From Tubulanus polymorphus (Eukaryota > Nemertea > Palaeonemertea > Tubulaniformes > Tubulanidae): a stretch of DNA of 64,000 nucleotides. The translations under genes and the position numbers were made by a program. The notes below the pieces were generated by a model. The model searched no databases. It was not told the origin of the DNA and saw only the letters and a list, made by a program, of their open reading frames with translations. Positions 16,879 through 58,739 of the stretch are shown here, one piece after another (within the stretch, counting starts at the first letter, position 1; the number at the start of each line of letters is the position of its first letter). The stretch lies in NCBI RefSeq assembly GCF_964204645.1, contig NC_134026.1, positions 9,561,450 to 9,625,449 of the forward strand, given 5' to 3'.

Positions 16879-17645
16879 TGGACGCAGAAACGAAGTTCGT
16901 TTTTGCGGGGCGCTAAAACGAGAAATCACCGCGCTAAAACGCGCCAAAACGGGCGCTAAAACGAAAGTTCGTTTCTGCGCTCTTTTTGGCGCGTTTCTGC
17001 GCGGTAAATTTCGTTTTTGCGCCCCGCAAAAACGGACGCAGAAACGAACTTCGTTTTTGCGGGGCGCAAAAACGAGAAATCACCGCGCCAAAACGGGCGC
17101 TAAAACGAAGGTTTGTTTCTGCGCGCGTTTCTGCGCGGTAAATTTCGTTTTTGCGCCCCGCAAAAACGGACGCAGAAACGAAGTTCGTTTTTGCGGGGCG
17201 CAAAAACGAGAAATCACCGCGCTAAAACGCGCCAAAACGGGCGCTAAAACGAAGGTTCGTTTCTGCGCTCGTTTTGGCGCGTTTCTGCGCGGTAAATTTC
17301 GTTTTTGCGCCCCGCAAAAACGGACGCAGAAACGAAGTTCGTTTTTGCGGGGCGCAAAAACGAGAAATCACCGCGCTAAAACGCGCCAAAACGGGCGCTA
17401 AAACGAAGGTTCGTTTCTGCGCTCGTTTTGGCGCGTTTCTGCGCGGTAAATTTCGTTTTTGCGCCCCGCAAAAACGGACGCAGAAACGAACTTCGTTTTT
17501 GTGGGGCGCAAAAACGAGAAATCACCGCGCTAAAACGCGCCAAAACGGGCGCTAAAACGAAATTTCGTTTCTGCGCTCGTTTTGGCGCGTTTTAGCGCGG
17601 TAAATTTCGTTTTTGCGCCGCGCAGAAACGGACGCAGAAACGATG
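16879..17645. repeat. Right subterminal palindromic array, ~154-bp units
   Basis: About five units of a 154-bp composite (one unit is 20 bp shorter). Unit starts are at about 17041, 17175, 17329, 17483 and 17637, judged by the GAAACGAA word. Each unit is built from inverted short words such as GCGCAAAAACG, CGCGCTAAAACGCGCC and GGCGCTAAAACG, so a unit can fold on itself. It is the inverted counterpart of 5135-5455 but longer. Open frames through it on both strands are repeat by-products. Confidence 0.9.
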
Positions 17646-20257: not shown

Positions 20258-20466
20258 TTATTTCGTTTTCTGCTTCTTCGAGATAATATTATGTAGCCTC
20301 GTTCGAACCTGAGGCAAAGTTCGGCTACCACCAAGTTCTTCAACTACTTTTCTCAAGTCTACTGCTGGTGCCATTCGCTTATTATTCAAATAGTTATGCA
20401 ATATCTTACAAAAAATATCTGTTTCTCCCTTTGTCCAGGGTGCCCTCTTAATACGTGACTTCTCAT
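20258..20466 (-). CDS. Gene A last exon: SANT/trihelix-like C terminus
   Basis: The exon reads NEKSRIKRAPWTKGE and continues for about 50 more residues to a stop. The basic start followed by W-T-x-x-E and regularly spaced hydrophobics is the pattern of a Myb/SANT or trihelix DNA-binding domain. The same position in gene B has NRQPWSDVEIAALEKHL. The preceding exon (20611-20748) is acidic (SENSDDSDDND). Confidence 0.7.
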
Positions 20467-23400
20467 CTGAAACAAAATCATATAAAAATGCTACACAAAC
20501 CATTGCATCAAGACTACTGATAGGTTCTCACAATAGGCCCCATTTCCCCTAGGATTGTTATACCGTCCATAAGGTGGTTTAATCACTATGGACCCTATCC
20601 ATGAACTTACTTTGCGCTTCAGATTGGTTAGTTTCCATCTTTGGCGGAACTTCTGCATCGACCATGTCATTGTCATCACTGTCATCACTGTTTTCACTGT
20701 CTTCACACTCAGTCCACTTATCGGCATAATCCAAGGATAATGGGAGTGCTAAAACGTGTGAATAAATGCACATGTACACATACACACACACGGGTGACTG
20801 CTGTCATAGCAGAGAATACTAAAATATTTAATCTATCAGTAAAGTCAGACTTACCATCGGGATCAATATCCTCCAATGACTTTCCTTTGAATCTTGCCAT
20901 AATGCCATTTTCGGCAGCCAATAGCACCTTCGCTACCTTCGCTTTTTCAACGAGTGAAGATTGGAGGCAATATACATCTGCGTGAATTTTCACATCGTGC
21001 CCCATATGATCAGCCACCATCTTCAACTCGTTGGGCTTCATAGACAAAATCTGAAGTTATAAACCCAAATACTGGCTTTAGGGCTTTCATCCATTTCAAA
21101 TCACTTCACAATATAATTTCCATTCACAAGTATCATTATAGCCGATCATTGATTTATTATAATCATTGCTTGTTATGTCTTTCGAAGACCAGAGCTTTAC
21201 CTTCTTTATAGATATTCTTGATGAATGAAGGTTCTATTTTATATTCTTAAAAATTTCATTCACTAATACATACAGGGCTGGAAATTAGGCTTGTATGATA
21301 GTACATGTAAAAGCACTTCATGATAAGGTATGTCCTGATACGGATGTTTTAGGCCTATACAGGATCCGATATCAGCACTTGTCTATTATCACTTGTCATC
21401 CTTTTATGATAGGTTTTATATACTGGTTAACTGAATGTAGAATTGTGGGACATACATAAATAGGAAAAATCACTTCATGGTCAGGTAGTGTCTTGATATG
21501 ATGGGTTTTATATGTCACTTAACTGGATGTAGAATTGTGGGACATACATAAATAGACACTTCATAAATAGGTAGTGTTCTGATATGATGGGTTTAATATG
21601 CTATTTTACTGCATGTAGAATTGTAGGATATATATATAATGGGAAAATCCTTTCATGATCAAGTACTGTCTAGATGATTACATGACCTTAACGGTCACAT
21701 GCCCTCTTAATTTCAGTAAGTAATTAACCTAATGATTCTTTTGAATATAGATAACACCTGATATCAGGAAGACAGAAAAAAATCCCCCATATACATGTAG
21801 TCTTAAATTGTCAGGTTATTAATCAGGTAATATAAATATACAACATTTATAATTGTAATACTGTGGTTTGTATTTTAAAGAGGTTTGTAATGCTTGCAAT
21901 AAGACTAATCCTAGTTCATTGGTAAATGATAAACCTACTTGTAGTGTAGTTGCAAAGAAAGATCGGAGCTTCGTCGATCTAATTCGTTCAGGTGCATTCA
22001 GTCCGGGACACAATTTTGTCATTTCACGCATTGCAGTACAACCGTCAAGTGGTGTGTCAGCACGTTTCCTAAAATGAATGATGGATTTGCAATGCTTGCA
22101 CAAAACCTGTCACGATATGAACTAAAAAAGGTTCAGATTGTATTGCTTTGTAAAGTATATACTGTATACAAAGACATTTTTCTAAAAAATGGCTGCATGG
22201 CCTGGTAAGCACTAACTTATTTGATTATTCAGCATGTAGATGCCCACGAACAAAACCGTGTATATCAGTTGTGATGAGAGATTAAGATTTTTATCAGGAC
22301 TATTAATCAATTGACATTCAAAAAGGGAATGATTGTACCTTAATAATAATAAAATAAACCTTGCATTAATCGAATCCATTCAAGAAACATTCAAAATCCG
22401 TATTGCAATTGTTAATGGGTTAATGTTATTTGAATAGGAAAGTGCAAACACTGTATAAATCAGAAAATAGCATTCTTCCTAGAAAGACCCACATAGCTTT
22501 ATCTGTGAAACTTTACACTGACATTTCAGATAGACTTCTATCCATCTTCAGAGTTATATAAAAACTCTTCTAAATCGCTGAAGATGGATAGAAGTAAAAT
22601 CTATCCAAATTGTCAATGTCAACAGATATACGTTGTTGAATGTTCTTATTATACACGCTATATACACGTCTTTTATACACGTCTTTTATACATGCTAAAT
22701 AGAATGCCACAAGTCTAATTGATTTCAGAATTGATGTTACCTAGCAAAAATGAAGTCACTTGTACTTTGTCTGGTATCGAGGATATGTTCGATAGCTTTA
22801 ACCATCTTCTCAGTAAGCAGAATGTATACACCTCGAATACTGCGAGTGCTCTTCCCTCGGATTTCTATTACACGCATTCTACAAAAAACTCTCCAAAATC
22901 AACCCAACATATCTTGTAAATTAGATAAGAGCATATGACTAAGACAATTTTAAAACAACAATTACCGTTTGACCAAAAGCTGCTCAGCTAGAGACAGTGA
23001 TTGCAGGATCTCTTGATTCTGATCGGCATCCGGCACAATATTTTCGAAATCGCTCATGATCATTTCTTCCACTTCTGATATCCGCCTTCGGTTGAAAAGG
23101 ACTATACGGACAAGAACAGCATAAGCAAGATGTTTCCACTGTTTTGAAGTAGGCTCATGTATCATCAACGCTTTATCAATTTCAGAGTCGAGCCAATCTT
23201 TAAAGACTACTAAGTCATCTGCCACTGGATGTGTATTGCCTTGATTGAGTTTCCTAAGTTTAATCCTTCGATTAGCAACACACGAAACAGTATTGTTCCA
23301 ATGGGCCCGATAAACTACTTCGAAATCTCTTCCCTCTTCTTGCATAATTTTGTCTCCTTCAAAAATCCCCATGCTCATTTTGAGGACAATGCAATGTTTG

Positions 23401-26400
23401 ATGTAAATCCCCAAATTTATTGCCACACTCGGGGAATCTTTTTCCAAAGCTAACTTCTTAACACATTTGACTATCTGATGGAAATGTGGCCCTCTCAGGT
23501 ACGAGGAAAGCGATATCCAGTTTTCTTCGCCATTGTTCTCATTCAGGGCTTTCAGTAGCATACCGAGTAAACGGACCTTTGTTCTCAAGTTTGCTAGGTC
23601 TTTTCGGCGCTGCTCCTTTGCAGTGCCTAAACGCGAGTACAATGACAAAGCAAATTCACCAATTAATTCGTCTTTTTCGCAAATGCCAGGAATGCCAGGG
23701 TTTGCAACTGTTTCTCGCATTCTGCTGAATATCAAGTTTAATGCAACCGTATCCTCATCGATTCTTGGTACAAATGGTGATAGCATGTTTCGAGAGGTTC
23801 TTATGTAATTGATGTCTGGTTGTTTTGCCATTGGTTTGAAGTGGCAACGTGTCGCATGCTCGGAAAGGCATCCCTTGTAGAAAAAACCCTTACAAAATTC
23901 GCATGGTACGTAGTCCACTGCATTTGGTGGTTTATCCGTTTTATTGGGTCTACGGACAACGACCAACGTACCATGTCCTTCTTTTATCACTTTACAATTG
24001 TGCCGAAAGTTTCCTTCATTCTGAAGTAAGCGCATATGTTTTTTTTTTTCATTTGGATCGCGTATCAGATGGTACTTTATAATTTCTGGTTCAGACGCGT
24101 GAATACTGCACAAATGCGAGGATATTTTCGAAGTAAACACACGCTTACAATACAAACAATAATCTGCCTTTCGGTAGTCCCGCTTGCCATCTACTGACTG
24201 GTATGTCGGAACAGTAACATGTTTCAAATGAGCCGACAGTCTTGACAGATAATCTCCAAAGTCTTCTTCCTCAATATCGTTATCATTTGGATCAATTTCA
24301 TGGAGATTATCATCATCACTATCACATAGATCGTCATCAGGAATGTAATCATCTTCAGAATCTGATATACATTTTCTTTTTTTCCGCTTTTTTGGAATGT
24401 CAACATCAATTGACTGATCTTCAGAGTCAGATGAGTCAATTTGCCTTTTTTTCTTTATAATTGCATCCTGTTGTGAAGAGGTTCCAGCTTTCGGTTCAAA
24501 TACATCTTTTGGCAGTAAAGGGGCAAAATGATCCGGATTCCAGTGTCCAGGTTTAAGTTCTGAATGTGTAGTCCACATTACGAGTAAAGGTGCTTGCCTC
24601 AATGTGCCAGTCAAATTTTTTCTTGGATTTAATATATGGTTCATTATAGGCACACGATTATCCAATAACCCATTAACCGAGGGGTATACTGATCTTATCC
24701 TCCTATCAATAACTGTTGCGAGTGCCTGTATTGTCAGCATCGAAGAATAACTGTTGTGTATTGCACAAGCAATACATGCATCTGCGAAGGATGGTGAAAT
24801 CAAATCGAATCCAAATTCGATACTTCGAGTTTGATAGAAGTCAGAATTCTCAACCATTTCGATACAAGTGCGAACACGAAGTTCAGTTGCTAGATCTTCA
24901 CACCCACAAAGACCGACTGATACTGCATTGAACAAACAGTTACCATCACCAGATACATCTGCAGGCATGAGCACCCCATTTACCATATCACCACATTTCT
25001 GCATAATTTCTAATGACCTGCCATGTACCATCAGTTTTCTGTCCAAACACTTATACTCAAGTTCCCGTATCCTACTTGCAAAATAGCCAACAGTAGTTTT
25101 CAGATTCTCATAGCTTTTCTGTGCACTCAGAGTGAGCATCTTCAGAATGTTTGAGTAATCAATAGTGGTAGTAGCTGAAGATAAAATAAAAGACATCTAT
25201 CAAGTGTTAATGAATACCTAGGAAACTACCACCAAAATTTAACATGTTTGGTGTTGCAGATCTATTCTTATGAATTTAAATCAAATCTGGTAGACCTAGC
25301 CATTTTACATGTACCCAATTCAATACAATCAAAAGTCAATTTTCCGGCTTCTCAATAAAAATCTTGTCAAAGTTGTATCTAAATCCAATATCTAAAAAAC
25401 AAATATCCTACTGAACTGAATTTTTGACTTTTTGACCTCGTAGAAACTGTTGAATTAATATTCACATACATTGATAACATCTTTGCGTTATTTCATGTTA
25501 TTTTTGAAGGCATCATTGGACTACAAGTTTTTATCACTCTAACCTCTGTCTAACAATACTTCAATGTTCAATTCCTGCTGGTGCGAATACACAAACTATT
25601 TTCCATGAAAATCAATGAAATGACAGAAAATTTCATGTGCTTTTTCACTTTGCAATAGATAATAGGTACAAAACTGAATGGTTCCAAAGTAAATTTCAAA
25701 TTTCCAAAGTAAATTTCAATGTTCAAATTAATCCTAGTGGGGAGAACAATATCGGATAATTTCTATTCAACAAAACAAATTCAACATAAATAACAACAAC
25801 ATAAATAACAAGTTAAAATTGTTGGTACCCTCCTTAAAAAAAAAACCATTCCAACCATGAGCGAGGACTGGTGAGACTAAGATGACTCAAAATTTGCCTG
25901 ATCCAAACATATCTAAAGATCTAGAAATTGAGACTACAGATTACAGAGACTACTACAGAGACTACGCCATTTTCCTCTGATTGATCCAATTTTTCCAGTA
26001 GTAATAGGCTCTGGGCAGAGATACATATATTATATATACCAAACATCAAACAAGTTCTCCATGAAAACTTTTGTTGAACAAATGCTGTTGGTCACATATC
26101 TTGAATCTGATAAGACCAGTTTTTGAGCTGCAGTTGTCTCAAAAGTACTAGATACATGTATTAAGACAATCCTTTAAAATATCTCCAAAGCTTCCTAAAA
26201 TGCTTTGATTCTACCTATGGATGGACAATTGACACTAGAACGCAATATGCCTAATACAACTTTAGAACAAGATTTTTCAGTTAATGTGTAAGATTTTTCA
26301 GTTAATATGCACCTTTTTAAGGTAGATAAGATCATAACGTTCACTTACCGCAGGTTCCCTCCTTGTTTTCATAAAAAAATGGTAATTCTTCATCGCTATC

Positions 26401-29400
26401 ATAGTCATGTGGCAGAAAACCTAAATAGATTAGTTTCAATTATTTCAATTATCCATACTGGCATAATTTTTCGGCATTGACCCTCCCCCTTAGTATCTAC
26501 GTGTTAATGACACAAGCTATGCTCAACACTTTCAACGACCGAAGGATATTTTTTATGAAATAGGGAGTGTAAAGTAATATGGATTGCAATTTATTTTTAT
26601 ATCACAGTTTTTGATGCATTTTAGGACATGTCTTGTCCACAAAGTATGTGCTCCTTGAAAGACAAAAGTTCGTACAATGTGCTCTAATCCCCACCCACAA
26701 AAGAAGGGAAACCACTTTTACATGATTTCACTCTCTGAAGACCGATTGCATTTTGACTTTCTTCTCGCAAGGCATTATCTTGCAAGTCGATCGTTTTCCT
26801 TACACTCACAAAATATGAATGTTTAGGATGAACAAAAACCAGGTTTAAAGGTATAGTACACTTCAAATGTAACGTACTTATTATAGCTTGAGATATCGAA
26901 GATTCAAGTAATTCCTCGCCATCTGAAAATTCTAAAAGTAGAGAAAAGCCAAAACATCTCAAAAACTATTTGAAGAAAATATATATTTCAATTATCAGTG
27001 GGTAAGTAGTGTTAGCTAGTCCAATTTTGGGAATAAAACAAATTCCAAAGATAACTATATTGGCAGCTCATTGATGTTCAATCATTCAAATAGCTGATTA
27101 TTGGAAATGTGCATCTTGTGAATAATAAAGCTATGTAACTATCAGTAACTGCATAAATACGGTAGATATCATCGATACAGCTATTAAATTGTGAACAACT
27201 ATAACTGCTTATGCAAACAAGTGTTATCTTACCAGAACAGGTGGATTCAGAATCATTGTCAACATCACCAGAAGGGCCACATGTCAATGCATCATCTTGA
27301 AAAATAAATGATATGGTGACAATTATTGCTGCATGTTACAAGTTAAAGAATTATGCAATACGTTAATTTACCAGAGCAGGTAAATTCAGAAACTTTCTTT
27401 ATATCATCACATCAATACATTATCTTGAAAATCAAATGACAGATATAATGATACAGCAACCTGACAATTATTGCAACATAACATAAGTAAAGCATGCAAT
27501 GGTGATATAATGTATTAGATTATAATGTAACATAGAATTGTGATGCATAAAATTGTTCAAATTCTTCATGAACAGGAAAGGTCTATTTCAACTTGTTTGA
27601 AAAGGATATTGGGTTTGGGATAGTGTCCTGATATGGGATTTATATGCTGAATGTAGAATTGTAAGATATGCATAGGTAGTAAAATCACTTCATCATTAGG
27701 CAGTATCCAGATATTGTGGGTTTTATATGCCACCTAACTGAATGTAGAATTGTAGGACATATATGAATAGTAAAATCACTTCATCATTAGAGAGTGTCCC
27801 AATATGAAGGGTTTTATATGCCACCTAACTGAATGTAGAATTGTAGGACATATATAGACAGTAAAATCACTTCACAATTAGGTAGTGACCAGATATGATG
27901 GGTTATATATACTACTTAACCAAGTACAGAATTGTAGGACATACATAAATAGTAAAATTATTTAATGATTAGATAGTGTCCTGATGTGAATGGTTTTATA
28001 TGCCACTTAAGTAAATGGAGAATTGTAGGACATATGGTGAATCTTTTCTCATTAAGGTAGGATAGGTTTTATATGCCCCTTTACTAAATATAGAACTTTT
28101 AACACATATGAATAGAGAAATAGAGTTTATTTACCAGAAACTGTGAATTCAGAAATTTTCTTTTCACCAGAACACTCACGAATCAATGAAATATCTGTAA
28201 AATAAAATGACAGATACAATGATACAGCAACCTGTTGACCACTATTACTGCATTATACAAGCTAAAAAGTTACATAATGAGTAAACTTACCAGAACACGT
28301 GAATTCAGAAACTTGTTTTGAATCATCACTGGAACATTTACTCGTCAATACATTATCTAGAAAATCAAATGACGGATACAATGATACAGCAACCTGTTGA
28401 CCACTATTACTGCATTATACAAGCTAAAAAGTTACATAATGAGTAAACTTACCAGAACACGTGAATTCAGAAACTTGTTTTGAATCATCACTGGAACATT
28501 TACTCGTCAATTCATTATCTAGAAAATCTAATGACGGATACAATGATACAGCAACCTGATGACCACTTTTACTGCATTATTCAAGCTAAAACGTTACATA
28601 ATGAGTAAACTTACCAGAACACGTGAATTCAGAAACTTGTTTTGAATCATCACTGGAACATTTACTCGTCAATACATTATCTAGAAAATCAAATGACGGA
28701 TACAATGATACAGCAACCTGCTGACCACTATTACTGCATTATACAAGCTAAAAAGTTACATAATGAGTAAACTTACCAGAACACGTGAATTCAGAAACTT
28801 GTTTTGAATCATCACTGGAACATTTACTCGTCAATACATTATCTAGAAAATCAAATGACGGATACAATGATACAGCAACCTGTTGACCACTATTACTGCA
28901 TTATACAAGCTAAAAAGTTACATAATGAGTAAACTTACCAGAACACGTGAATTCAGAAACTTGTTTTGAATCATCACTGGAACATTTACTCGTCAATTCA
29001 TTATCTAGAAAATCTAATGACGGATACAATGATACAGCAACCTGTTGACCACTTTTACTGCATTATTCAAGCTAAAACGTTACATAATGAGTAAACTTAC
29101 CAGAACACGTGAATTCAGAAACTTGTTTTGAATCATCACTGGAACATTTACTCGTCAATACATTATCTAGAAAATCAAATGACGGATACAATGATACAGC
29201 AACCTGCTGACCACTATTACTGCATTATACAAGCTAAAAAGTTACATAATGAGTAAACTTACCAGAACACGTGAATTCAGAAACTTGTTTTGAATCATCA
29301 CTGGAACATTTACTCGTCAATACATTATCTAGAAAATCAAATGACGGATACAATGATACAGCAACCTGCTGACCACTATTACTGCATTATACAAGCTAAA

Positions 29401-32400
29401 AAGTTACATAATGAGTAAACTTACCAGAACACGTGAATTCAGAAACTTGTTTTGAATCATCACTGGAACATTTACTCGTCAATACATTATCTAGAAAATC
29501 AAATGACGGATACAATGATACAGCAACCTGTTGACCACTATTACTGCATTATACAAGCTAAAACGTTACATAATGAGTAAACTTACCAGAACACGTGAAT
29601 TCAGAAACTTGTTTTGAATCATCACTGGAACATTTACTCGTCAATACATTATCTAGAAAATCAAATGACGGATACAATGATACAGCAACCTGTTGACCAC
29701 TATTACTGCATTATACAAGCTAAAAAGTTACATAATGAGTAAACTTACCAGAACACGTGAATTCAGAAACTTGTTTTGAATCATCACTGGAACATTTACT
29801 CGTCAATACATTATCTAGAAAATCAAATGACGGATACAATGATACAGCAACCTGTTGACCACTATTACTGCATTATACAAGCTAAAAAGTTACATAATGA
29901 GTAAACTTACCAGAACACGTGAATTCAGAAACTTGTTTTGAATCATCACTGGAACATTTACTCGTCAATACATTATCTAGAAAATCAAATGACGGATACA
30001 ATGATACAGCAACCTGTTGACCACTATTACTGCATTATACAAGCTAAAAATTTACATAATGAGTAAACTTACCAGAACACGTGAATTCAGAAACTTGTTT
30101 TGAATCATCACTGGAACATTTACTCGTCAATACATTATCTAGAAAATCAAATGACAGATACAATGATACAGCAATCTGCTGCCAATTATTACTGCATTAT
30201 ACAAGCTTAAGTTATTTCATGAGTTTACTTACCAGAACAAGAATCATGATTTTTTTTTTCACCAGATTTGTGTTGACGAAAAGACTTGGAAGTCAATACA
30301 TTATCTTGAAAATGAAATTACAGGGTGTTAATACAATACCTAGAGTAGGTAATTTCCCAAAATATAGGCTTACATGTTGCCAGTAGACCATCTTGAATGT
30401 GATCCATGAAAATTACATGGTTTTATATCAACCTCATTTTGAGTGTGTCAAGAGAAAGTAAAAAATCGACAAAACATGTATGCCTGGTTACTGTCTTTTT
30501 TCCAATCCTACCGTTCAATTTGTAGGGAAAGAAATCAAATTACCTGCCAAGGGTAGAAATAGGAAAATTGCAAGGCGGGTTCAAAAAGTAAATACGAGGC
30601 ATTTTCGGTTAAAGCAGCCATATCAAATTCGTTAAGGGGGGTCCCTCCATCTAGGGTTAGATACACTTTTGAATAAATCAACCCTTAAAGATGAAATTTC
30701 TGAGATGTTAAATTTATAGGTTTAAGTTATCTCTGTACGAAGGGCAACTTCAAAGGGAAGGCACGAGTCTAGACCTTCGAGACCACCCGCTTGATACGCC
30801 CCTGCATGCATTTCAAAGATCATGTTTACTTCATGAGAATGGATTATTTCTAACATAAATAATAACCAATTTCATTGATGTTAAAAATATATTTTTATCA
30901 AACGATACATACTTAGACCATCAGGAAATTATAGCACTGTATAGTATTCACCTTAAAACAAAACATTTATCATGGTGGGTGGCCAATAGGACTGAACCTA
31001 AGTTTTTTTACACAAAGAATACATGCTTAACATTGCTCATTATCTAAAATATGCATTATGAGATAATTCAATGAAACAAAAGGGAACCATAAAAATTGAA
31101 AAGCATACAACAGATATATATATATAGAATATATATAAGGTTAGAATATATATAAGGTTAGGCCTATCACATGCAAAATGATTCAAATTCGTCTATTTCT
31201 GCTGTTCTGGTGGACGGCTCAACAAAGTATACCGGTAAATGTATAAACTGAGTTTATGGACATACAAATCTTATAGAGAAAAAGAGCAACATTTCTGAGG
31301 GGTGGATGCAAGCTGGATTTATATGTGCATAATAAAAGGCATAATTCAACTACCCGCCCTTGGTTGTGTTCCAACCTAATGCTTCTAAGCCAATACTGTA
31401 TCATTCACTTATACAAATTGGGTAATGATAGTTTATGGTCGTTGGTGTATCAAAATGAATCATCTACCATCATAGGGCATACCTATAAGAAGCAAGTTGC
31501 ATCTAACATAACCTATCTTATCTTCAAAGTCCAATGATATTTATTAACCGCAGAATTAACACATATTCCTGATAGACACCCTCAATTCAGATTCATGCAC
31601 AGTTATCACACACAGTACATGAAGAAAATCTCATGGCGCAAATGTAGCCTGTATACAGCAAGTTTTTATGTAAGCCATGAAATGCAAGGCAAATCTGAAA
31701 TTTACATTTGAATATGATAGACTCATTTTGCTTTTATTCTCCATGCTTAAACCAAATTCCATCTACATAGGCCTAATGACAATCGCAAGCTTCAGCATGC
31801 TGGGTGTACTTTGCAAGTTTGACTCAATCTAGAAAATTTTAATCCCAACAGGTTAACAAGCTTACCTGAGGCATTAAGTTCTTTTTTGTTAGAAGCCTAT
31901 TTATATGTTGAATACAAAAATAATTTTCCAGAATGGCATAATGGAAGCAGTGAAGAAATCAGCAAATAAGCAAATGTAGCTCATTCATGCAGCACAGAAA
32001 TACAATATGGTACCCAAATGCATCAGTAGAAACAAAGATACTACACGGCGTATCTATAGTACAATGATTAGTTGTAGAGGAACTTTTATCGTGATTAAGA
32101 AATTGATCAGTCGATGTTCTTAGGATCAGTACATACACACAGAGAAGGGTGAGGGGGTTTGAAAATTTGTATTAAAATGTCTATGGTTGTGTATGGGAGG
32201 GGGTTTGCATTTATAAACTGCTGTATGCACCATACTCCATGTAGTATGATCATTGATGTTGGACCATCGTAACTCATAACCAAAGTTTAATTTTTTCAAC
32301 ACCAGCATAAATCATTTACTGATAATTCATTAATAAAGACAAGCGTTACGAATCATAAACTGCTTTCTTCTCGGGACCCGCTGTCAAGGATAATTGGAGA

Positions 32401-35400
32401 TATTGAGGTTATGTTCACGATACTTTTTTTTCAATTGACAACTTCAGTCGTCATTCTGATAAAAATTACAAGCTTTGAACTTAGGGCTAATTCTTTGATG
32501 CACAAATGCTTGCATTAGAGGTTGTTACTATAAGGCACTAAAGCGTATACAAAAAGTATGGATGTATGGTGAAGGGGAGGGTAAGGTTCTAACTGAATGA
32601 GAGCTTCGCTGCAACAAAATTGGATGAAAATAAATCATCATAATTTACCTGTCTCCACCAATAATCAGTCACCCCGTAATCATACCGCAATTCTGTTTTG
32701 GGGGGTATGTCCTTAATAGCAAAAAATGCAATATGGGGCCTTCCTTCAGATATGACGGTTTTGGCTTTACAGTTTTCTTTGCCACCCCACCCATCATTGA
32801 TGAGCCGTCCCAAACTACCATCATCAATTGAGGCATCAATGCTGAAATGGTAAAAGTCATATTTAGAGTATTCAATTAGGCCTAATATACTTTAAGAAGA
32901 TGGGTGGTATCAAATTATGATACAGGCCTACAGGTAACAGTTAGGCTTTGAATGACTTATTTTAGTTAAAGTGTAAACTAAGTAGCCTGATGGGCAATAT
33001 CTGGTTAGAAAATCAATAGACCTACATACCACAGAGAACTGAACTTTTTGTCTTGAAATTCAAAGACATATGTATCGTCATCCCCGATTTCCTTCACATC
33101 ACGGAGTAGCCCACGATATTCCACCAAAAAATCCCCTCTACAAACTGCTTTCTTTGTGAATAATCCATATCCTTAATCAGAAAAAAGTATTATCTTTGAT
33201 TAAAAACCATTCCTTCAGGTCCTACATTAAAACCTAGGGTCCAGGGACACCATGCCCAGATGAGAAAAGGTTTGAAATGCTCAACCATCTGGAAATGTTA
33301 ATATTCAACGTCTGGTGAACTACAGAAACCATGACATAAATTTTGCATTGATTGTTTATTTATGTCTTTACTATGTATTGTGGTAACAAAATATGCCAAT
33401 GTATTAATAGGTATGATATGGAAATACTCAGTTTCTGCTATTAAGTCAAGGAAGCTACCGATATAGGTTTTTGAGGATTTCAGACTGAGATTTTTGAGCT
33501 ATATGGGCACCAAAAAGGTCACAGGACGGACTTCTTGTGTCTGATCAACTCAATTGTTTTAATGCTGATGGGCCCCTAGGCATTAAAAATATTATTTGAA
33601 AGATCAAGATAATTGAAGCGTCTTAAAAGATTTCCCTTGAAAACATCAAAATCTGTAAAAATGCTGATTTCGGCAAACAGAAATCTGCCATCTTGATTCT
33701 GACAGGACCAGTCTTTGGGCTGTAGGTGTTTCAGGGTAATATATGTATAAACCAAACATCAATCCATGTGTTTTCTAAACTTCCCAAAATAACTGGATTC
33801 TGTCTACGGACTGACACAACAGATATTCTATAAAAAAGTGGATATCATACAGATGCAGCAGTAATTTAGTAAACTAGTGGTCCAGGGACACCACGCCCAC
33901 TTGGGAAGTGGTTAGAAATGCTTAACAAACGGAATATTCAACGCCCCCTGGTGAACATATTAAGAAAGCAATGACCTTACAACTCACCACAATCAATGAT
34001 GGAACATGTCATGAGCTACAATTTTGTAATTGATTGTGGTTACAAAATATCCTTAGAGACCAATACAATATGAAAATACTAATATAATATAATAAAAGTT
34101 ATTTAGCTCTTCAATGCCCCTGGTGGCCTAGGGCCGATTCTTTTATGCAGTACGGATAATCCGGACGCTCCATTTCCATTCTTTTATTGATCAGGTGACT
34201 ATTTCTGGAGAGTTCGGAGAGTCCATTCTCTCCAATCTGTCGACCGGTGTGATTGCGGAGAGACCACGTGACAAAATGGCGACGCATGAATTTTGCCTCC
34301 TAAAACTCAGAAAAGTTACGGAAGCCGCCATTTTGATTCTCAACAACTATTCCATTATGCACAAATCAGGATATTCAATCCGGAGAATACGGACTGCATA
34401 AAAGAATCGGCCCCATAATCATAGAATATGTCACAAGATACAATTTTGCCATTCATTGTGGTTACCATACCAATGACCTTGAAACTCATACAAAATATCA
34501 ATAGGTACCAATTCTGTAATTCTGTATGTAATTCTATATTCAACTCTCCCTGGTGGTGAGAACAAAAACCCGGGTAACCCCAATTCCACGTGAGGAGATG
34601 AATACTATGACAGCGATACTATAGGCCTATATCAAATATCAAGACTATAAGTCAAAACTTGTCCATAGTTTCCTTCAAAAACCTTTTTCTGAGGACTGAT
34701 GACACGAAGATGGTCACTGATTGCATCACGCTTGACTGATCAAAGTATCTGTCTGATAGGCCTGTGTAAGAGCCCTTCTCATAGTATAACCAGATCTCGG
34801 AATTCAGGCCAAAAATGACCTTGGGCATAAAAAAGGTCACATGATGGCCATGTTAAGTCTGATCTACACAATTTTTCTTATGCTGATGCACCGGGGATAC
34901 AAACAGATGTGAATGATCAAGATAATTGATCAAAGGGTTTCAAAATTTCCCTTAATAACATCAAAAATATGTAAAAAGTGCTGATTTTGCTGAACAACAA
35001 TGGCAACCAGTCGGCCATCTTGATTCTGATCAGGCCAGTTTTCGGGCAGAAGATGTATCTAGATACATGTAAAAACTAAAGATCAAGACAATCCATTGAA
35101 GCGACTTCAAAACTTCCCAAAAGAACTTGATTCCGTCTATGGACAAACGGACGACAGATGAAAAGTGAACGCAATAGTCCACTGGGACTTAAGTCCCAAG
35201 TGGGCTAAAGATTATGTTGTCCTCATTATATATCAAAAACACTTCTCGGCCTATAGGCCTCATTAGGTTAAGGATAGGGTTGGGGTCTAGAAGGTCAGGA
35301 GGGTTAGGGTTTGATAGGGTTAAAACATTCCATTTAGGTATAATTTAGCCTACCTATTTCGCTATTGACAACTTTTTTTTCGAATGCCTCTTCTGGATCT

Positions 35401-35456
35401 TTGCCAAATTTAATAAATTCAAGAGCCACCTGACTTGGTGTCATGCGTCTCGGCAT
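20258..35456 (-). CDS. Gene A: SET-OTU-zinc finger-tyrosine recombinase-SANT protein
   Basis: Minus-strand exons assemble into one frame of 1,533 codons plus stop: 35354-35456, 33030-33171, 32649-32841, 31866-31896, 30233-30304, twelve 66-nt exons between 30138 and 28291, 28135-28194, 27233-27295, 26878-26931, 26349-26420, 22966-25174, 22741-22878, 21939-22068, 20855-21050, 20611-20748 and 20258-20466. The exon lengths sum to a multiple of three and each junction keeps phase. Domain order: SET (~1-146), acidic/Ser-rich exon array (~157-527), OTU (~595-750), basic-acidic linker with KKRKKRK, zinc-finger pair (CLYC, CEFC), tyrosine recombinase (~1000-1400) and a SANT-like end (KRAPWTKGE). It could methylate lysine, cleave ubiquitin chains and recombine DNA; none of these activities is shown by sequence. 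The recombinase resembles Crypton-type enzymes. That SET and OTU share one transcript is inferred from phase continuity and from gene B. Confidence 0.75.
20855..22878 (-). CDS. Gene A exons for the catalytic half of the tyrosine recombinase
   Basis: Three exons (22741-22878, 21939-22068, 20855-21050) continue the recombinase begun in the large OTU exon. The first Arg is in LFNRRRISEVEE (~residue 1224). Exon 22741-22878 gives VIEIRGKSTR with a candidate beta-hairpin Lys. Exon 21939-22068 gives RSTKLRSFFATTLQ with the second Arg (~1345). Exon 20855-21050 gives HMGHDVKIHADVY with His ~1371 and the nucleophile Tyr ~1380. The R-K-R-H-Y set appears complete, so this copy may be active. Confidence 0.8.
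21290..21670 (-). repeat. Minisatellite M87, copy in a gene A intron
   Basis: Several imperfect units of about 87-100 bp share words such as TGTAGAATTGTGGGACATA and AATCACTTCATG. The same unit occurs in the same orientation at 27,600-28,110 and in opposite orientation as a large array at 37,670-40,600. Confidence 0.75.
22526..22593. other. Intronic stem-loop
   Basis: CTTCTATCCATCTTCAG is followed 27 bases later by its exact reverse complement CTGAAGATGGATAGAAG. This gives a 17-bp stem in the gene A intron between 22068 and 22741. Confidence 0.7.
22966..25174 (-). CDS. Gene A large exon: OTU protease, zinc fingers, recombinase N-terminal half
   Basis: A single 2,209-nt exon with a phase-1 acceptor. 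The OTU signature reads ADVSGDGNCLFNAVS (Asp ~600, nucleophile Cys ~607) and ends with HWNPDHFAPL (His ~743), so the catalytic triad residues are present. Next come a nuclear-localisation-like stretch PKKRKKRKC between acidic runs, and paired zinc-binding motifs CLYCKRVF and CEFCKGFF with nearby His/Cys. The rest is helical recombinase sequence ending with LFNRRRISEVEEMIMSDF. No stop or frameshift. Confidence 0.88.
26349..27295 (-). CDS. Gene A linker exons between the array and OTU
   Basis: Three small exons, 27233-27295 (63 nt), 26878-26931 (54 nt) and 26349-26420 (72 nt), all phase 1 at both ends. They encode acidic or Ser-rich peptides (for example DYDSDEELPFFYENKEG). The 27233-27295 exon still resembles the array unit (DDALTCGPSGD and ESTCS). 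Another relic at about 27,373-27,424 contains a stop and is probably skipped. Confidence 0.6.
27600..28110 (-). repeat. Minisatellite M87, second intronic copy
   Basis: About five units carry the words TGTAGAATTGTAGGACATAT, TAAAATCACTTCATCATTAG and GTTTTATATGCCAC, inside a gene A intron. Confidence 0.8.
28135..30304 (-). repeat. Tandem exon array of gene A (14 phase-1 exons)
   Basis: Twelve units of about 162 bp are nearly identical, each holding a 66-nt exon with its own acceptor (TTTTCTAG) and donor (GTAAGTTT). The exons run from 28291-28356 to 30073-30138. Each encodes the same 22-residue peptide, starting DNVLTSKCSSDDSK and ending VSEFTCS. All are phase 1-1, so any number can be included without changing frame. 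Older diverged members flank them (30233-30304, 72 nt, and 28135-28194, 60 nt). Introns are as similar as exons, pointing to recent expansion by unequal exchange. The peptide is polar and acidic with a pair of Cys and is likely disordered. Confidence 0.88.
31866..31896 (-). CDS. Gene A 31-nt bridging exon
   Basis: A 31-nt candidate exon with ATAG acceptor and GTAAGC donor encodes ASKKELNAS. It is the only piece noticed that converts the phase-0 donor of the SET exon (32649) to the phase 1 needed by the array. Support is phase logic and splice sites only. Confidence 0.45.
32649..35456 (-). CDS. Gene A SET-domain exons
   Basis: Exons 35354-35456, 33030-33171 and 32649-32841. The start MPRRMTPSQVALEF is followed by the SET motifs YGLFTKKAVCRGDFLVEYRG, CIDASIDDGSLGRLIND and ELRYDYG. 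The pattern G-x-G-x-F, D-x-x-V-E-Y, C-(V/I)-D-A, R-L-I-N and Y-D-Y-G is closest to KMT5A/SET8-type lysine methyltransferases. The usual R-L-I-N-H-S is R-L-I-N-D-G here, so the conserved His is replaced; activity is uncertain. Confidence 0.82.
33236..35215 (+). repeat. Dispersed repeat R1, two or more copies in gene A intron 1-2
   Basis: Starts with GTCCAGGGACACCATGCCC at about 33,238 and again GTCCAGGGACACCACGCCCAC at about 33,882. Ends at 35,215 with TTAAGTCCCAAGTGGGCT. This is the reverse orientation of the copy at 8136-8960. The second copy is interrupted by a MITE at 34,131-34,414. Confidence 0.65.
34131..34414. mobile_element. MITE nested in R1
   Basis: The left end GGGCCGATTCTTTTATGCAG and its inverted partner CTGCATAAAAGAATCGGCCC at the right end give inverted repeats of about 20-25 bp around a 284-bp element with no coding frame. 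Confidence 0.7.
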
Positions 35457-44191: not shown

Positions 44192-44460
44192 TTATTTCAT
44201 CATTTTCTTTTTCTCAATCAGATTATACATTTTACTTTTAATTACTAGCCAGTTTCTGTTTTGTAAGCAAGGAGCCAGCCTCTTGCATTGATCTATTTGG
44301 TGCCTTTTAGGCACAACTAAAGTCCGTAAATTTGTAGCTAAATGCTTTTCTAAAGCAGCAATTTCAACGTCTGACCAAGGCTGACGATTCGTCACCGATT
44401 TTCTCTTTTTTGCATCATTCTTTCCGCATTTCTTTGATATATCTCCAGTCGTGGATGATA
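44192..44460 (-). CDS. Gene B last exon: SANT-like C terminus
   Basis: Open from a phase-1 acceptor to the stop at 44192. Contains KKRKSVTNRQPWSDVEIAAL and later CLQNRNWLVIKSKMYNL. The pattern of basic residues, then P-W-(S/T)-x-x-E and a second Trp, matches the SANT-like ends of recombinase-related proteins and corresponds to the last exon of gene A. Confidence 0.7.
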
Positions 44461-45167
44461 CTACAATATAAAAAGACCAATTAGCAGACAAAATTAAAGA
44501 GGCAGCTAACAAAGAAATTAAAAGCATGAGGCACAAGTGTTGGGGTGATCAGTTTGCACATGTGTAATAAACCAATGTGAAGGCTTTAGCTCTCAAAAGA
44601 TTGTGCATTCAAAGCTTACATGATGCATTGGTATTTCGTCTCATGAAGAAGAAATTTAAAGGAATACTTAATCATAACCTTTTTCTGTAACCTATAAACA
44701 AAGTCAGAAATTTGCATGCTATATAATATACGCACCATTAACTTCTCGCTTTCTTTTTGCGGCAAGACCAGCAGATTTTGGAACTGTAATGAAATATTAT
44801 CACAGCTTAGTAAAATGTTGCAAGAGCAATCATATATTGATTCTAAATAATTTGACTCTAAAGAGTGCATGCAACCATTTCTGGATCAAGAGTTCACATG
44901 ACAGAGTTCAATCGGCTTATTTATAGATTAACAACAAATGATGTCAACTATTTCCTGTCACCGTGATCAACAAAAAATCTCCCAATATACCCAAGGCTAT
45001 AGGCTAAAATAAAAATGTTATTATTGAAAAAAATCTAAGCAGTATGCTTCACATTTCCAGCTTGGACTAAAAATAAGTCTGAAATGTAAACATTATGTGG
45101 CTAAAGTGACGATAAAGTTATCATAAACCTAGCTTGAAATTTCAATGAAGTTTATTTATGTACATAC

Positions 45168-46414
45168 CTGACTGTGATATCAACACTTTCCACACGGAAC
45201 ATAGATTTTAGAAGATGTTTCTCAAACTTAGATAAAGTTTCATACATTTCATCATCAACATTTTTAGTTTTTCCACCCTTTTGGTAATCGGAAATAGTTA
45301 ATCTGGAGATCTCTCCCTGTCTTCTTTTGTTGAACGACATTACCTCAGCTAATGTTCCAGTAGCAAGATTTGTCCAGTTTGTCGATATTTTCATCATTTT
45401 TCATCTTCAGGTAATCATGAAATCGTTTAACATCTTTCGTTAAGGGTAAAAGCTTTGGCTTGTTGAATTTTTTCAGCCGTACAGTTCTCAGAGCACAACT
45501 TGAGATTTTTGTGTGTCAATCACAAGTACTCAATTTACCAAAATCTTTCGCACGTTTTCTTAATTCTGAGTCACCTGTTCTTAATGCCTGGCCAGAAAGA
45601 ATTTCAGCACATCGATTTAGGTTATGGCCCAAATCTAGCGCTAGTGAAGGTAAACCAAATGAGCCATTTTCATATCTAGATACTTGCCGAACAGCAACTA
45701 CAACTGTGTCAAACTTTCTAGGATCTATGGCATCACCCAAACATTGAATATCAGGGCGCATAACATCCACAAGTCTAGCTAACTGGCGCATTTTTTTTTT
45801 AATGTTGGCATACTGATGCTTCTGACCTTTGCAGCGTTCAAATTTTTTGGTTCCGAATTCCAAAATAAGCGGGTCATTTTTCACAATTAGGCTCAACCGA
45901 TCAGGGTGTAATCTTCCCAATATGTCGTTTTTGAAATCATCATTCAATTCAGTAGCTTTGGAAGGCAAAAGTAAGGCTGACTTGCTTTGGACTCGTCCTC
46001 GGGACCCTGATTCTGAAGAGATACAGGTTTTTTTGTGCCGCCAAAGAACTTTCCGATAATAAAGATTCAGACAGTTATCACAAAGCAAGTAATCATCAGC
46101 GCAGGTGACTTCTGTCGGCCTCTTCTTCGCAACGATAACACCTTCACCTGCTTTTAAAACGTCACAATTGTGGTTGAAATCCCCTTTTGCTCTTAGCGTA
46201 TCAATTAAATCATTTCTCTCCTTTGACTTTTTTGGTAAAGTTAAAATTCTCTGAATTTCAATTTCTGCGCCATGATCACTATACCAATGACGTGGCACCT
46301 TCGAGTAACCTTTCCCACAAAAAACACAAAAATGTTTTTTAGCTCCTTCACTAGTTGATGATGCAACATATATTTTCTGATCACTGCCAGCAGGAACACA
46401 CTTCTGAGAGTTTC
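45168..46414 (-). pseudogene. Gene B zinc-finger and recombinase N-terminal exon, with TGA and frameshift
   Basis: Reads CVFCGKGYSKVPRHWYSDH and LLCDNCLNLYYRKVLWRH (zinc-finger pair), then the helical recombinase N-terminal region. The frame meets TGA at 45516-45518, stays open afterwards (HTKISSCALRTVRL, aligned with WNNTVSC in gene A), then must change frame before FNKRRQGEISRLTISDYQ. The exon ends at 45168 with GTATGT. Confidence 0.8.
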
Positions 46415-46473
46415 CTAGATGAATGAAAAATAGTCATTGCATCGTTTAAATAGACTATAAAGGTAATCAAACC

Positions 46474-46760
46474 GAGGACATATGTATATCTGATGTGTAA
46501 ACATGTGGAATAAATTTGGCAATCAAACTGAGGACATATGTATATCTGATGTGTAAACATGTGGAATAATTTTGGCAATCAAACGGAGGACATATGTATA
46601 TCTGATGTGCAAACATGTGGAATAATTTTGGCAATCAAACTGAGGACATATGTATATCTGATGTCTAAACATGTGGAATCATTTTGGCGATCAAACTGAG
46701 GACATGTATATCTGATGTCTAAACATATGGAATCATTTTAGCGATCAAACTGAGGACATA
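46474..46760. repeat. 56-bp minisatellite in a gene B intron
   Basis: About five units with starts at 46474, 46530, 46586 and onward, each containing GAGGACATATGTATATCTGA and AACATGTGGAAT. Related single units occur through the other gene B introns (48.8 kb, 50.1-51.1 kb). Confidence 0.85.
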
Positions 46761-47770
46761 TGTCTGGAAGTTTGATAATAACACATAACTATTTTGACAG
46801 ACAACCCCTGATATACCACCATCCCATATAGCGTTACCTTCGCCTACCACCAGCCAGGTTGTCTCAATGTACATCTCTATACATAGTATATATATAATAC
46901 CGCCAAAATCGATCTGCCCTGATGTGGGTGGTATATAAAGCTTAAAAAATAATTACCATCGATAATTGTAGCTGTTGTTTGGCTCTTAGTGTCAGTGTCT
47001 TGCTTCAGGGAATGTTCCACAATTACTTTTGCTGTGACATTTTCTAGAATGAAAATAAGCCTGATTTGAGACCTTACATTTTATCGAATTAAGGATGATT
47101 TTTAAACAAGCGGACACATAAAACCAATTTAACCGAGGACATGATCTCTACCCAACACAAATATTCTTAAAACAACTACCTCTTCCGAATCTAGCAGATT
47201 CTCTGTCATTACCAGTGTCTAGCGTCTGTGATTTGGCTGAGTTCTCAATCACCCTGGATTTAGCTCCGGACTTTTCTAGGAAATAAAGTATACAAGGTTT
47301 TAATTTAAGGCTACACATTTATACCAAACATAAAAGATATACATGTATATCTTTTAACCAGATGCAGTCTTTCAAGGGGGATACCGGATTATGCGATCCT
47401 TGAATCTCACAGGAAACTAATAACAAAACTTATCTTGAACCCGGAGGACTAATTAAATAGAGGGGATAGTAGGTTGATTCCACTGAAAAATATTGGGCTT
47501 GCTATGCACTATTAACAGGGTTTATTTCTTCCCTGCTGACCAAAATTCACTGCTTTTCAATACCACATGAGTTCCCGAAATGGTGTGGCAAATCCAATAC
47601 CCCAATCATCATGTTCAAAAAATACAAAAATGATATATTGTCAGATAAAAATAATTCTATTTTCATTTTTTATCAATCTATTTTCTAATTTAAAATTTAA
47701 AGATTATCCATTTCAAAATTAGTGCCTAAAGAATTATTACCAGTCAAAAGCGGATGAGATAGATACTTAC

Positions 47771-48445
47771 TAGGTTGTTGGAAGCACTTAGGTTCCAGTA
47801 ATGGAACAAAGTGATCAGGATTCCATTTCTTTAAACGCAGCTCACTGTCCGTGGTCCACATAATATATATAGGATTTTTTCTCCTTTTGTTTCGTGGATT
47901 CAGAGTTGTGTTCAAAATTGACACTCTGTTGTCTGTCATTCCACTGACAGCAGGAAAAACTGAGGTAATACTCCTATCAATAACAGTAGCTAATGACTGC
48001 ATGGTGAGAATTGACGAAAATGCATGGTCTGAGGCACAAGCAATGCAAGCGTCCTCATAATCCGGCGAAATAATATCATGACACAGCATATCAGCCATAG
48101 TCCGATAGTGAATATCATGCGTAACCATCTCAATGCATGTACGGACACGTAGTTCGGTTGCAAGATTTTCAAGCCCAGTAAGGGCTACGGATACAGAATT
48201 GAACAGACAGTTGCCATTTCCTGTTACATCAACTGGCATAAGGTTATCACCACCATATGTCTGTAGAATATCACGAGAATATGAATGCACCGAAAGTTGA
48301 TTTTCATTGAACGGTGTAGAATGCAGACCATTTCGACATACTTTAGGACTTTCCACTGATACAGCATTCTTCAATTCCAGAAAACTGATTTTCGCACTTG
48401 CAGAAAATTTTTGCAAGATATTTTCGAAGAAACCTAGATTTAGAC
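47771..48445 (-). CDS. Gene B OTU exon
   Basis: A 675-nt exon, phase 1 at both ends. Contains MPVDVTGNGNCLFNSVS (Asp and catalytic Cys of OTU), LATELRVRTCIEMV shared word for word with gene A, and KKWNPDHFVPLL (His). It is open throughout. Predicted to be an OTU-family deubiquitinase domain. Confidence 0.88.
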
Positions 48446-48904
48446 CTAAAAATGAAGCATAAAAATTTTTCAACTGGTAAGTTCAATTCTATAATTCCAC
48501 ATCAAATCTCAGGTGCACAACATCAATCATATCTCCAAAACAATTAAATCTTTTAAGATACATTAATAAAAAGGGTAATACAAAAATGTACATCAATTGA
48601 GTGAACAGGTGTGAAAATCAACAATGCAACAACTCAATAATTACCTCTTACTCGCTTCAAATGTGCACTGATGTTATAAATAGGAAATTCCATATCACCA
48701 TCATCATTTGAGCTACCACAATCTGAACTATATACATGTTCAGTATCTGAAAATGCAAGTGGAACCATTTTAATAAAAGAAAATTAGTAAGTGTAACCTT
48801 AACCATTTTTTACAATGAAACTGAGGATATCCATAATCTTAATGTTTTAACAGGTGGAATCATTTTGAAAATAAAGCTGAGGATATATATAACCTTCACT
48901 AACA

Positions 48905-49535: not shown

Positions 49536-49921
49536 TCTATTTTCAGATGCTGCACGAAAACGGTTATAGTGGGATTCAAAGCCAATAGCTTATAAACTAG
49601 ACACCCGAGTCCTCAAAATACCGTACAGAAATCAACATCCTCCTATTACAATTACTCAAGTATTTCGAGTATGAACATGACAGGTCTTAGAGCTCACTTC
49701 AAATCCAAGTAAGTTTGGATGAATTGGGGGTGGGGGGGGGCCATAAGGACACCATTTTGGTGGCCCAGCTCATCAAATCTTATATCATAACACCAACTCG
49801 CAATGCATAAAAATAAACAGCAAATGAGCTATTCGGTATCGTGATGAACTTGGATTTTCCCTAAAATTAATTGACACTACATTGTGAAATTCCTCAGTGC
49901 TAATGGGTTAAAAATAATTAC

Positions 49922-50950
49922 CTTCACCGATAATCGTAGTGGATTCTCCATCATCATTGCTAGCTGCTGGTGATGCCGTGACACCGATAAACGTAGGCTC
50001 TCGATCATCATTGCAAAAGTCTTGCTTTTCTGAAGGTTTCTCGATCACTGCTGCAGATGTTGCTGTGACGTTCTCTACAAAGACAAAAAGTCTGGTTTCA
50101 ATTTAAGGCAATATATTTTAGAACATTAAACTGAGGATGATTTTTAGTGGAAATGTTTTGAAAATCAATCTGAGGACATTCATTATCTTGATGTTTAAAC
50201 AAGTGGAAGCATTTTGACAGTCAAAATAAGGACGTGAAACTATTTTGATAAGCAACGGTCAAACTAAGGACTTGATACTTGAAGTTCGATAACGGGAACC
50301 TTTATGACAGTCAACAGTCAAACCCAGGACATGCATGTATACAAATACTAAAAAAATAAAGACATTCACCGATAATCATAGTGGATTCTCCATCATCATT
50401 GCTAGCCGCTGGTGATGCCGTGACACCGATAAACGTAGGCTCTCGATCATCATTGCAAAAGTCTTGCTTTTCTGAAGGTTTCTCCATCAATGCTGCAGAT
50501 GTTGCTGTGACGTTTTCTAGAAAGACAAAAAGTCTGGTTTCAATTTAAGGCAATATATTTCATAACATTAAACTGATGATTTTTAGTGGAAATGTTTTGA
50601 CAATCAAACTGAGGACATTCAATATCTCAATTTTAAGTAACTGGAAGCCTTTTGACAGTCTAAATAAGGACATGAACCCATACTGACAAGTAATGGTCAA
50701 ACTGTGGACATACATAATCTTGAGGTTCGATAAGAGGAATATTCATAACAGTCAAACCCAGGACATACATGTATACAAATACTTAAAAAATAATTACCTT
50801 CACCGATAATTGTAGTGGATTCTCGATCATCATTGCTAGCTGCTGGTGATGCCGTGACACCGATAAACGTAGGCTCTCGATCATCATTGCAAAAGTCTTG
50901 CTTTTCTGAAGGTTTCTCGATCAATGCTGCAGATGTTGCTGTGACGTTTT
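49922..50950 (-). repeat. Gene B tandem exon array (three ~51-codon exons)
   Basis: Exons 49922-50074 and 50798-50950 (153 nt) and 50370-50516 (147 nt, donor shifted by two codons) are near copies. They encode ENVTATSAA, EKPSEKQDFCNDDREPTFIG and ASNDD with small changes. All are phase 1-1. Flanking introns are also duplicated, with a period near 430 bp. Exons 47180-47275 and 46957-47043 look like older relatives (ENVTAKVIVEHSLKQD). They sit at the same place between SET and OTU as the array in gene A but share no obvious sequence with it. Confidence 0.82.
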
Positions 50951-52713: not shown

Positions 52714-54384
52714 CTGATTATCTTCCCAGGGATAGGAATCTAATCCATAGTCATACAGCAGCTCCTCATTGGCGTCTATGTTTCTAGTTGCGAAGAAACA
52801 TATGACCGGTTCCCCAGTTCCTAATTGCAAGACTTTTGCTCTTATGTTCCTCTCTCCTTTTACTCCATGGTTAATTAACCATCCATATGACCCATTTTCT
52901 CTATGAGCATCTACACTAAATGACAAGACATTAGGTATTCATAAATCAAATTTTACATTCTATCATTAAAAAAAAGAAGTAAATTGAATCCTTAAAGCTG
53001 CAAAAAGAGCAAGACATGGGCTAGATAGTGATCCAATTAAAACAGAATATTGAAATGGGGAGAAAATTGACCTTTCTGATCTGATGATCTGTCTTGATGA
53101 TGTTCAACAAAAATGTCTATATGCAAATATTGATATACTAATCATTCATTAACATGTCGATAACTGTACATAGTGTGAGACAGGCCACACACAAAAAAAA
53201 AAGAAAACAGAATGGCACTTCAACTGCTAACTCTAACCATTACTCATTTCATCCTATGTTGTTAAAATCATCATACCGCCTGTACAAATTAACTTCATTA
53301 AGTGCACGGTTCGAGCTTCATGCTCTTTGTGTAATGTATAAACTGAATTATCTTATGTTATTATGTACAAATATATGCTGAATAAACTACATTATATACA
53401 AAAAAAATTGCGCTTCAAAGAGTTAACAGCACAATTAGTGAAATACAATACATAGGCCCTACACATGACATAGTTTAGACACTTACCAGTAACCACGACC
53501 CTTGAATTTGAAAAAATAACGATAAACAGATGGATCGTTCTTCTCTCTTTCTAAGCCTTCTCTCTCATCAATCAATTCGCCCCGATGCTGGAGTAGAAAA
53601 GATTGATGCTCCCTCCTGACTGATGTTCTAACTCCACGCCCTAAAAATACATTTAATAAGACTAACTGAACACCTGTTCATCGAGTTACAATGAGATTTT
53701 TTGGTCGAGGAGCCAAGCCAAATAATCATATGCAATGACAGGGGGCACTGAGGGAGTTTAGATAGATATTTGAAAGGTTCAACCTAGAATATCCTGTCTG
53801 ATATTTTCCAATGAAAACTCATATACCCAGAAGCCTGGAGAATCTCTTCCTTAAACCCCTTCTACATGATTGAAAATCATAGTGAAAGTTTCAGTGAGAA
53901 GTCAGTGTTTTCAATAAGAAATTAACAAGCCAGGTCCCTTTGAAAAACAGGAGGGTCCCCCTATGTCACAGTCCCTGAAACAAAAGCTGGTTTGAAAAAC
54001 AGGCGGGTCCTTTACAAACAACAGACGGGTCTGGGACCTGGCTCTTATTGAAAACACTGGAAGTAACAAATATAAAATTCTTAGGCATAACTTACCTTTT
54101 CTCGGAAATTTATCGATGTAGTAACCAGGCGGATCACTTTCTGTCCACAGAATAGCTAGTTCATTCGGGGAATGGCGCTACAAATCATAATATAAACAAT
54201 AAGAAAGGTGTATGCGCAGTAAACTTTGTCTCCGAAAGTGCAGCCATATGTCTGTGATTCTCCTCTTTTGGAGACGTCAACTAACTGCTAAAACCATAAA
54301 GCCTAAGTTAAAATACCATGAAAATGAAGTAGGCCTATAAAGGTGTGGTTTAAAAAAAGAATCAATACTAACCCTGCGTTTCAT
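52714..54384 (-). CDS. Gene B SET-domain exons
   Basis: Four exons give HSPNELAILWTESDPPGYYI, GRGVRTSVRREHQSF, FKGRGYCVDAHRENGSYG, WLINHGVKG and NEELLYDYGLDSYPWED. The C-V-D-A, L-I-N-H and Y-D-Y-G motifs match the KMT5A/SET8 pattern, and the L-I-N-H His that gene A lacks is present. All phases agree. Confidence 0.82.
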
Positions 54385-58695: not shown

Positions 58696-58739
58696 TTTGA
58701 TAGTCACAGGGACAGTTTTTTTAACGTTTTTGTTCTTAC

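Follow-up and report, generated by a model that had tools for sequence, protein, structure and literature searches.

A predicted ribbon worm gene joining SET, OTU and tyrosine recombinase modules, and its relatives in other animals

The locus and its exon chain

In this work we analysed a stretch of 64,000 nucleotides from Tubulanus polymorphus, a palaeonemertean ribbon worm (Nemertea), located on contig NC_134026.1 (positions 9,561,450 to 9,625,449 of the forward strand) and here called the window, which holds a minus-strand gene predicted to encode one protein composed of a SET methyltransferase domain, a long linker, an OTU protease domain, a tyrosine recombinase and a helical C-terminal domain. 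A protein search with the large OTU exon returned this gene as LOC141907100, annotated "uncharacterized protein". Its exon chain, named copy 1, was rebuilt from the DNA independently of the exon list of the original prediction, and the same structure was recovered: 27 exons on the minus strand, from an ATG at 35456 to a stop at 20258, with all introns GT..AG, phases in agreement at 26 of the 26 junctions, and a coding total of 4602 nt, or 1534 codons (1533 aa and the stop).

Exon 1 (35354..35456) carries the start codon and begins MPRRMTP, exon 2 (33030..33171) holds the GxG and EYRG part of the SET domain, and exon 3 (32649..32841) holds its LIND and YDYG part and ends in phase 0. A proposed bridge from SET to linker, the 31-nt exon 4 (31866..31896), is followed by a diverged first linker exon (exon 5, 30233..30304) and by twelve 66-nt phase 1-1 linker exons (exons 6-17, 28291..30138), ten of which are identical while two have one base changed. 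These twelve lie in a 162-bp tandem array (28192-30239), each unit of which is one such exon with its own splice sites. The linker continues through exon 18 (28135..28194), exon 19 (27233..27295) and the acidic exons 20 (26878..26931) and 21 (26349..26420). The large exon 22 (22966..25174) encodes the OTU domain (D604, C607, H743), a charged linker, two zinc-binding motifs, the core-binding region and box I of the recombinase with R1225; the recombinase lysine K1273 follows in exon 23 (22741..22878), box II with Thr1342 and R1345 in exon 24 (21939..22068), and box III with H1371 and the predicted nucleophile Y1380 in exon 25 (20855..21050). The chain ends with an acidic linker (exon 26, 20611..20748) and with the helical C-terminal domain and stop (exon 27, 20258..20466).

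All the motifs claimed for SET, OTU and the recombinase R-K-R-H-Y set are present in copy 1. The SET domain (GYG35, LIND95, YDYG135) matches Pfam SET at 5e-14, the OTU domain matches PF02338 with 27.0 bits against a cut-off of 23.3, and PF00589 matches the deposited RefSeq protein of this locus, P0001 (1179 aa), at 1.1e-6, above cut-off. P0001 covers OTU, recombinase and C-terminal domain, as well as the sequence of linker exon 18, and is identical to the rebuilt chain at 1069 of 1070 C-terminal residues; given the one K/R difference, the window DNA may come from another haplotype or individual than the record. This agreement over 1070 residues, together with SET exons that match KMT5A/SETD8, places the chain beyond chance. 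The predicted fold of P0001 was of little use (mean predicted local distance difference test score 49), and Rfam gave no match anywhere in the window.

A second set of modules, copy 2, is co-oriented with copy 1 at 54.4-44.2 kb (44192-54384, minus strand) and has the same module order. It begins with a 12-nt first coding exon (54373..54384), whose intron has no copy 1 counterpart, and an exon preceding the SET core (54096..54177), followed by two SET exons (53487..53640 and 52714..52915, the latter with LINH and YDYG); apart from the extra early intron the two copies share three SET introns, of phases 1, 2 and 0. The copy 2 linker (49922..50950) consists of three 153-nt exons (50950-50798, 50516-50364 and 50074-49922) within a 434-bp tandem array. 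An open OTU frame (47697..48482), 49% identical to the copy 1 OTU, keeps the Cys and His, carries Asn in place of the D-G-N-C Asp, and scores 23.4 bits with PF02338. The open frame of the zinc-binding and core-binding region (45519..46433) terminates at a stop, a box I piece (45155..45400) lies after a stop in another frame, and boxes II and III could not be detected in copy 2: its recombinase is broken. A C-terminal domain of the same type is found at 44192..44536.

Dispersed repeats are found in the introns of copy 1, and several further tandem repeats were noted in the window. A 91-bp repeat occurs in two copy 1 introns (21405-21675 and 27647-28035); longer arrays of it, oppositely oriented, lie between both copies (about 37641-40580). 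A 34-bp minisatellite (48914-49498) is situated between the linker exons and the OTU frame of copy 2, and a 154-bp repeat at 16946-17643.

The SET module and its attachment

The SET domain was originally predicted to be KMT5A-like, and this held: the 14 best PDB matches of the SET exons are all KMT5A/SETD8 (best 8e-13), KMT5A is the closest among SET classes, and YDYG is retained in nine of nine aligned SET sequences. When proteins were searched with the SET part, within a length range of about 843-2682 aa set by the tool, 12 of 126 candidates matched. Every one of them is from fish, and all 12 also align with the recombinase part of copy 1. They come from 11 named loci or records, as P0015 and P0016 are two isoforms from the same gene, and are deposited as "uncharacterized protein" or, in one case, as "N-lysine methyltransferase SETD8-A, partial"; with names of this kind, such annotations could mislead. 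In most of them the order is SET, repeated linker, zinc motifs, recombinase and C-terminal helices, the exceptions being P0020, which lacks zinc motifs and core, and P0021, which ends early. An R-x-S/T-P motif near the start is found in 11 of the 12, in copy 1 (RMTP) and in copy 2 (RHSP); the twelfth fish protein, P0022, is a fragment beginning within SET. No precomputed OTU domain is listed for any of the 12. Of the fused domain order first proposed, the union of SET and recombinase therefore stands as annotated single fish proteins, whereas the addition of OTU was seen in Tubulanus only.

It is on these fish homologues, which join SET and recombinase in one protein, that we credit the probable attachment of SET to the Tubulanus gene, for which they make a good indirect case. 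We consider it fairly probable that copy 1 is one gene whose product would unite SET, linker, OTU, zinc motifs, recombinase and a C-terminal DNA binder, and that the family to which it belongs comprises mobile elements and their descendants.

Several observations weigh against this reading. P0001 has no SET domain and omits exons 1-4; its start, MILVL, sits in exon 5 in a frame different from that of the chain, and it has three linker-repeat exons against 12 in the window. One uninterrupted transcript from SET to C-terminus is thus a prediction. The deposited coding start falls downstream of the SET exons and upstream of the OTU exon, which is in part what the original prediction had named as telling against itself. 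Exon 4 is the sole in-phase bridge candidate in a gap of 2.3 kb and has a weak pyrimidine tract; among 124 overlapping segments of the window as long as this gap, both strands counted, 68 contained at least one such candidate, so that this exon alone is not significant, and at the same strictness copy 2 has no bridging exon in its 1.7-kb gap. Two catalytic positions call for caution over full activity: the His of the NH motif of SET is Asp in copy 1 (LIND, where KMT5A has LINH) and in the seven fish rows shown, and His in copy 2, and the box II His of the recombinase (H-x-x-R) is Thr1342. The latter replacement is family-wide: of the 31 covered rows out of 34, 27 have T and 4 have R. Topoisomerase IB is likewise not known to have the box II His.

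The deposited start, the frequency of bridge candidates and the lack of a bridge in copy 2 would equally suit two adjacent genes, that is, a short SET protein and a downstream OTU-recombinase as deposited, which spare in-phase splice sites happen to join. We regard this as unlikely, since the fish proteins unite both modules in the same order, SET exons lie upstream of both Tubulanus copies with three shared intron phases, and the last SET exon ends at the same GT donor position in both.

The difference between 12 and three repeats in window and record is likely to reflect repeat-number polymorphism or alternative splicing. Linker repeats before the recombinase, built from lineage-specific units, were also observed in fish (P0012-P0014 and P0016-P0021) and in a clam (P0002), where most have 3 to 14 units, P0020 has 19 and P0002 has 3, and their number differs between two copies with identical recombinases; in the fish proteins P0022 and P0023 no linker repeat was counted.

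Mapped on the recombinase tree, the gain of SET took three changes as labelled, and a single gain was rejected on that count; absence of SET from other records is weak evidence here, because the deposited Tubulanus protein lacks SET too.

The recombinase family and the two copies

The tyrosine recombinase identity of the module was upheld by its residues, by the PF00589 match and by the catalytic fold, which in a relative resembles that of Xer, Cre and topoisomerase IB. The residues R, K, R, H and Y (R1225, K1273, R1345, H1371 and Y1380 in copy 1) are conserved throughout a family found in molluscs, nemerteans, a sea star, ants and fish, and protein records show near-identical copies on separate contigs in one ant (Pogonomyrmex; P0035, P0038 and P0039) and one dace (Rhinichthys; P0017 and P0018). 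Since catalytic residues are kept and some genomes hold near-identical copies, its members are most likely mobile elements or genes that derive from such elements. It is a little-described recombinase family spread across several animal phyla, with a SET-bearing form in fish. As to a viral origin, no relative was found in two scans of IMG/VR with the family, and in a fold search of BFVD nothing reached E <= 0.001, the integrase and Vlf-1 matches being weak. PHROGs gave five families with one member each (0.0076-0.084; none named integrase and four nameless), and when profiles of the wider family A4 were searched against the PDB, no recombinase came up.

The Crypton-type label of the original prediction was not borne out. 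Cryptons and Crypton-derived genes (KCTD1, ZMYM2-4, QRICH1 and WOC) likewise encode eukaryotic tyrosine recombinases, and domesticated versions exist in animals (PMC3212892). Animal Cryptons are described as lacking a C-terminal domain, and a search for terminal repeats in them was negative (PMC3212892). We rejected membership because a C-terminal helical domain is present here and conserved within the family, and because DUF3504 gave no match in the proteins scanned; the family is thereby set apart by layout descriptions and a profile rather than by a tree. Unlike Cryptons it has zinc motifs, the C-terminal domain, SET in some members and, here, OTU, and OTU does not occur in the Crypton paper, nor did we find methyltransferase mentioned there (PMC3212892). 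Endogenous nimavirus telomere-specific recombinases are described as containing zinc (C2H2) and SAM-like domains, and by that description resemble the family (PMC10871703).

With its 27 exons, repeats in introns, and one intact and one broken recombinase in the window, the Tubulanus gene looks resident and old. Such an intron-rich locus with dispersed repeats within its introns, and a copy 2 in which the SET and OTU frames are open and the recombinase is broken, would be expected of a domesticated host chromatin protein in which the recombinase serves as DNA binder while SET and OTU work, comparable to the Crypton-derived ZMYM and QRICH1. We find this rather doubtful, although less so than a pair of adjacent genes: R, K, R, H and Y are conserved in the worm as well as in ants and fish, whereas Crypton-derived DUF3504 genes have lost most of their catalytic residues (PMC3212892), near-identical copies occur on different contigs in ant and dace, and the copy 2 OTU has itself lost the D-G-N-C Asp. 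At the other extreme, the signs of recent copying at family level and the catalytic conservation could point to an element currently active in Tubulanus, the whole 15-kb gene moving. This we think very improbable, as P0001 is the sole OTU-recombinase protein found in searches of annotated proteins within length limits, dispersed repeats occupy the introns, no element ends were identified for the gene in the 64-kb window, and both copies are deeply diverged.

The two copies have discordant histories. Their OTU domains are sisters (support 98/96), while their recombinase cores are 24% identical and belong to different clades; compared with 16 family proteins the copy 2 core matched 15, with P0001 of copy 1 the weakest, and did not match P0025, which lacks part of the core region. 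Forcing the two cores together was rejected by the approximately unbiased test (p 8.8e-5, an optimistic value, as the pair was picked after an earlier tree had separated them), and for the recombinase core this test rejects a recent tandem duplication of copy 1 as the source of copy 2. SET lacks the copy-to-copy closeness of OTU, with 35% identity between the copies, 38-48% between copy 1 and fish and 32-36% between copy 2 and fish. The best C-terminal match of copy 2 is fish-type (8e-12), and that of copy 1 outside is Dreissena (5e-7). Sister OTUs with discordant cores would indicate either that a copy of the OTU exon passed from one locus to its neighbour or that OTU evolves much more slowly.

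Origin and possible roles of the modules

Outside the recombinase family, three of nine OTU relatives carry transposase matches: P0008 (Transposase_mut 3.9e-9, MULE 1.3e-5), P0006 (MULE 0.004, below cut-off) and P0009 (precomputed PF10551). Their OTU domains are 37-42% identical to that of copy 1, and unlike copy 1 they show no SET match; the closest OTU by identity, P0005, shows OTU alone. MULE transposon proteins have a DDE-type transposase instead of a tyrosine recombinase. From these matches the OTU of the Tubulanus gene was probably captured from a MULE-type transposon. On present evidence we would only tentatively extend this to an undescribed animal family of recombinase elements, some with a KMT5A-type SET of their own, that trade modules such as the MULE OTU and lengthen their linkers by exon copying; if true, the two Tubulanus copies, with sister OTUs on recombinases of different clades, would be a snapshot of module trade.

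In the mechanism that we propose, the linker would have lengthened as one small phase-symmetric exon was copied in tandem, and the zinc motifs, core domain and C-terminal helices would bind DNA, where Y1380, judging by fold and residues, would attack for strand exchange. KMT5A methylates histone H4. The SET domain might likewise methylate lysine, perhaps on H4, either at the DNA site occupied or on the recombinase to which it is joined, and OTU could strip ubiquitin from neighbouring histones or from the fused protein. The PIP-box degron that KMT5A has would have explained an OTU partner; none was present in copy 1 or in the four fish proteins scanned. As for the C-terminus, the helical domain first described as a SANT module is present, whereas the SANT label is doubtful: Pfam gave no match for it, and the fold comparison of a low-confidence model was led by homeodomains, which makes "helix-turn-helix-like" the safer label.

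KMT5A itself is not known to have a recombinase. SETMAR of primates, whose SET is among the PDB rows matched, also joins SET to a mobile-element enzyme, a mariner transposase; this enzyme is a DDE transposase rather than a tyrosine recombinase, and SETMAR is known from a single lineage. We found no description of a SET-recombinase or OTU-recombinase fusion in the titles and abstract beginnings of the open-access literature among the matches listed. A recombinase with its own lysine methyltransferase raises the question of whether a mobile element marks its target chromatin, or evades silencing, by writing marks. The SET-bearing fish forms and the conserved catalytic residues make both activities testable.

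Further frames were noted elsewhere in the window. On the minus strand, the end of a frame at 13076-14167 is similar to the beginning of a HECT ubiquitin-ligase domain and a frame at 827-1258 to a Copia-type ribonuclease H remnant, both by eye and with no Pfam match. A zinc-finger frame at 56276-57229 has a POGZ-like double zinc finger that scores weakly, below cut-off, and a zf-AD domain on the strand opposite to it, at 58582-58926, scores above cut-off.

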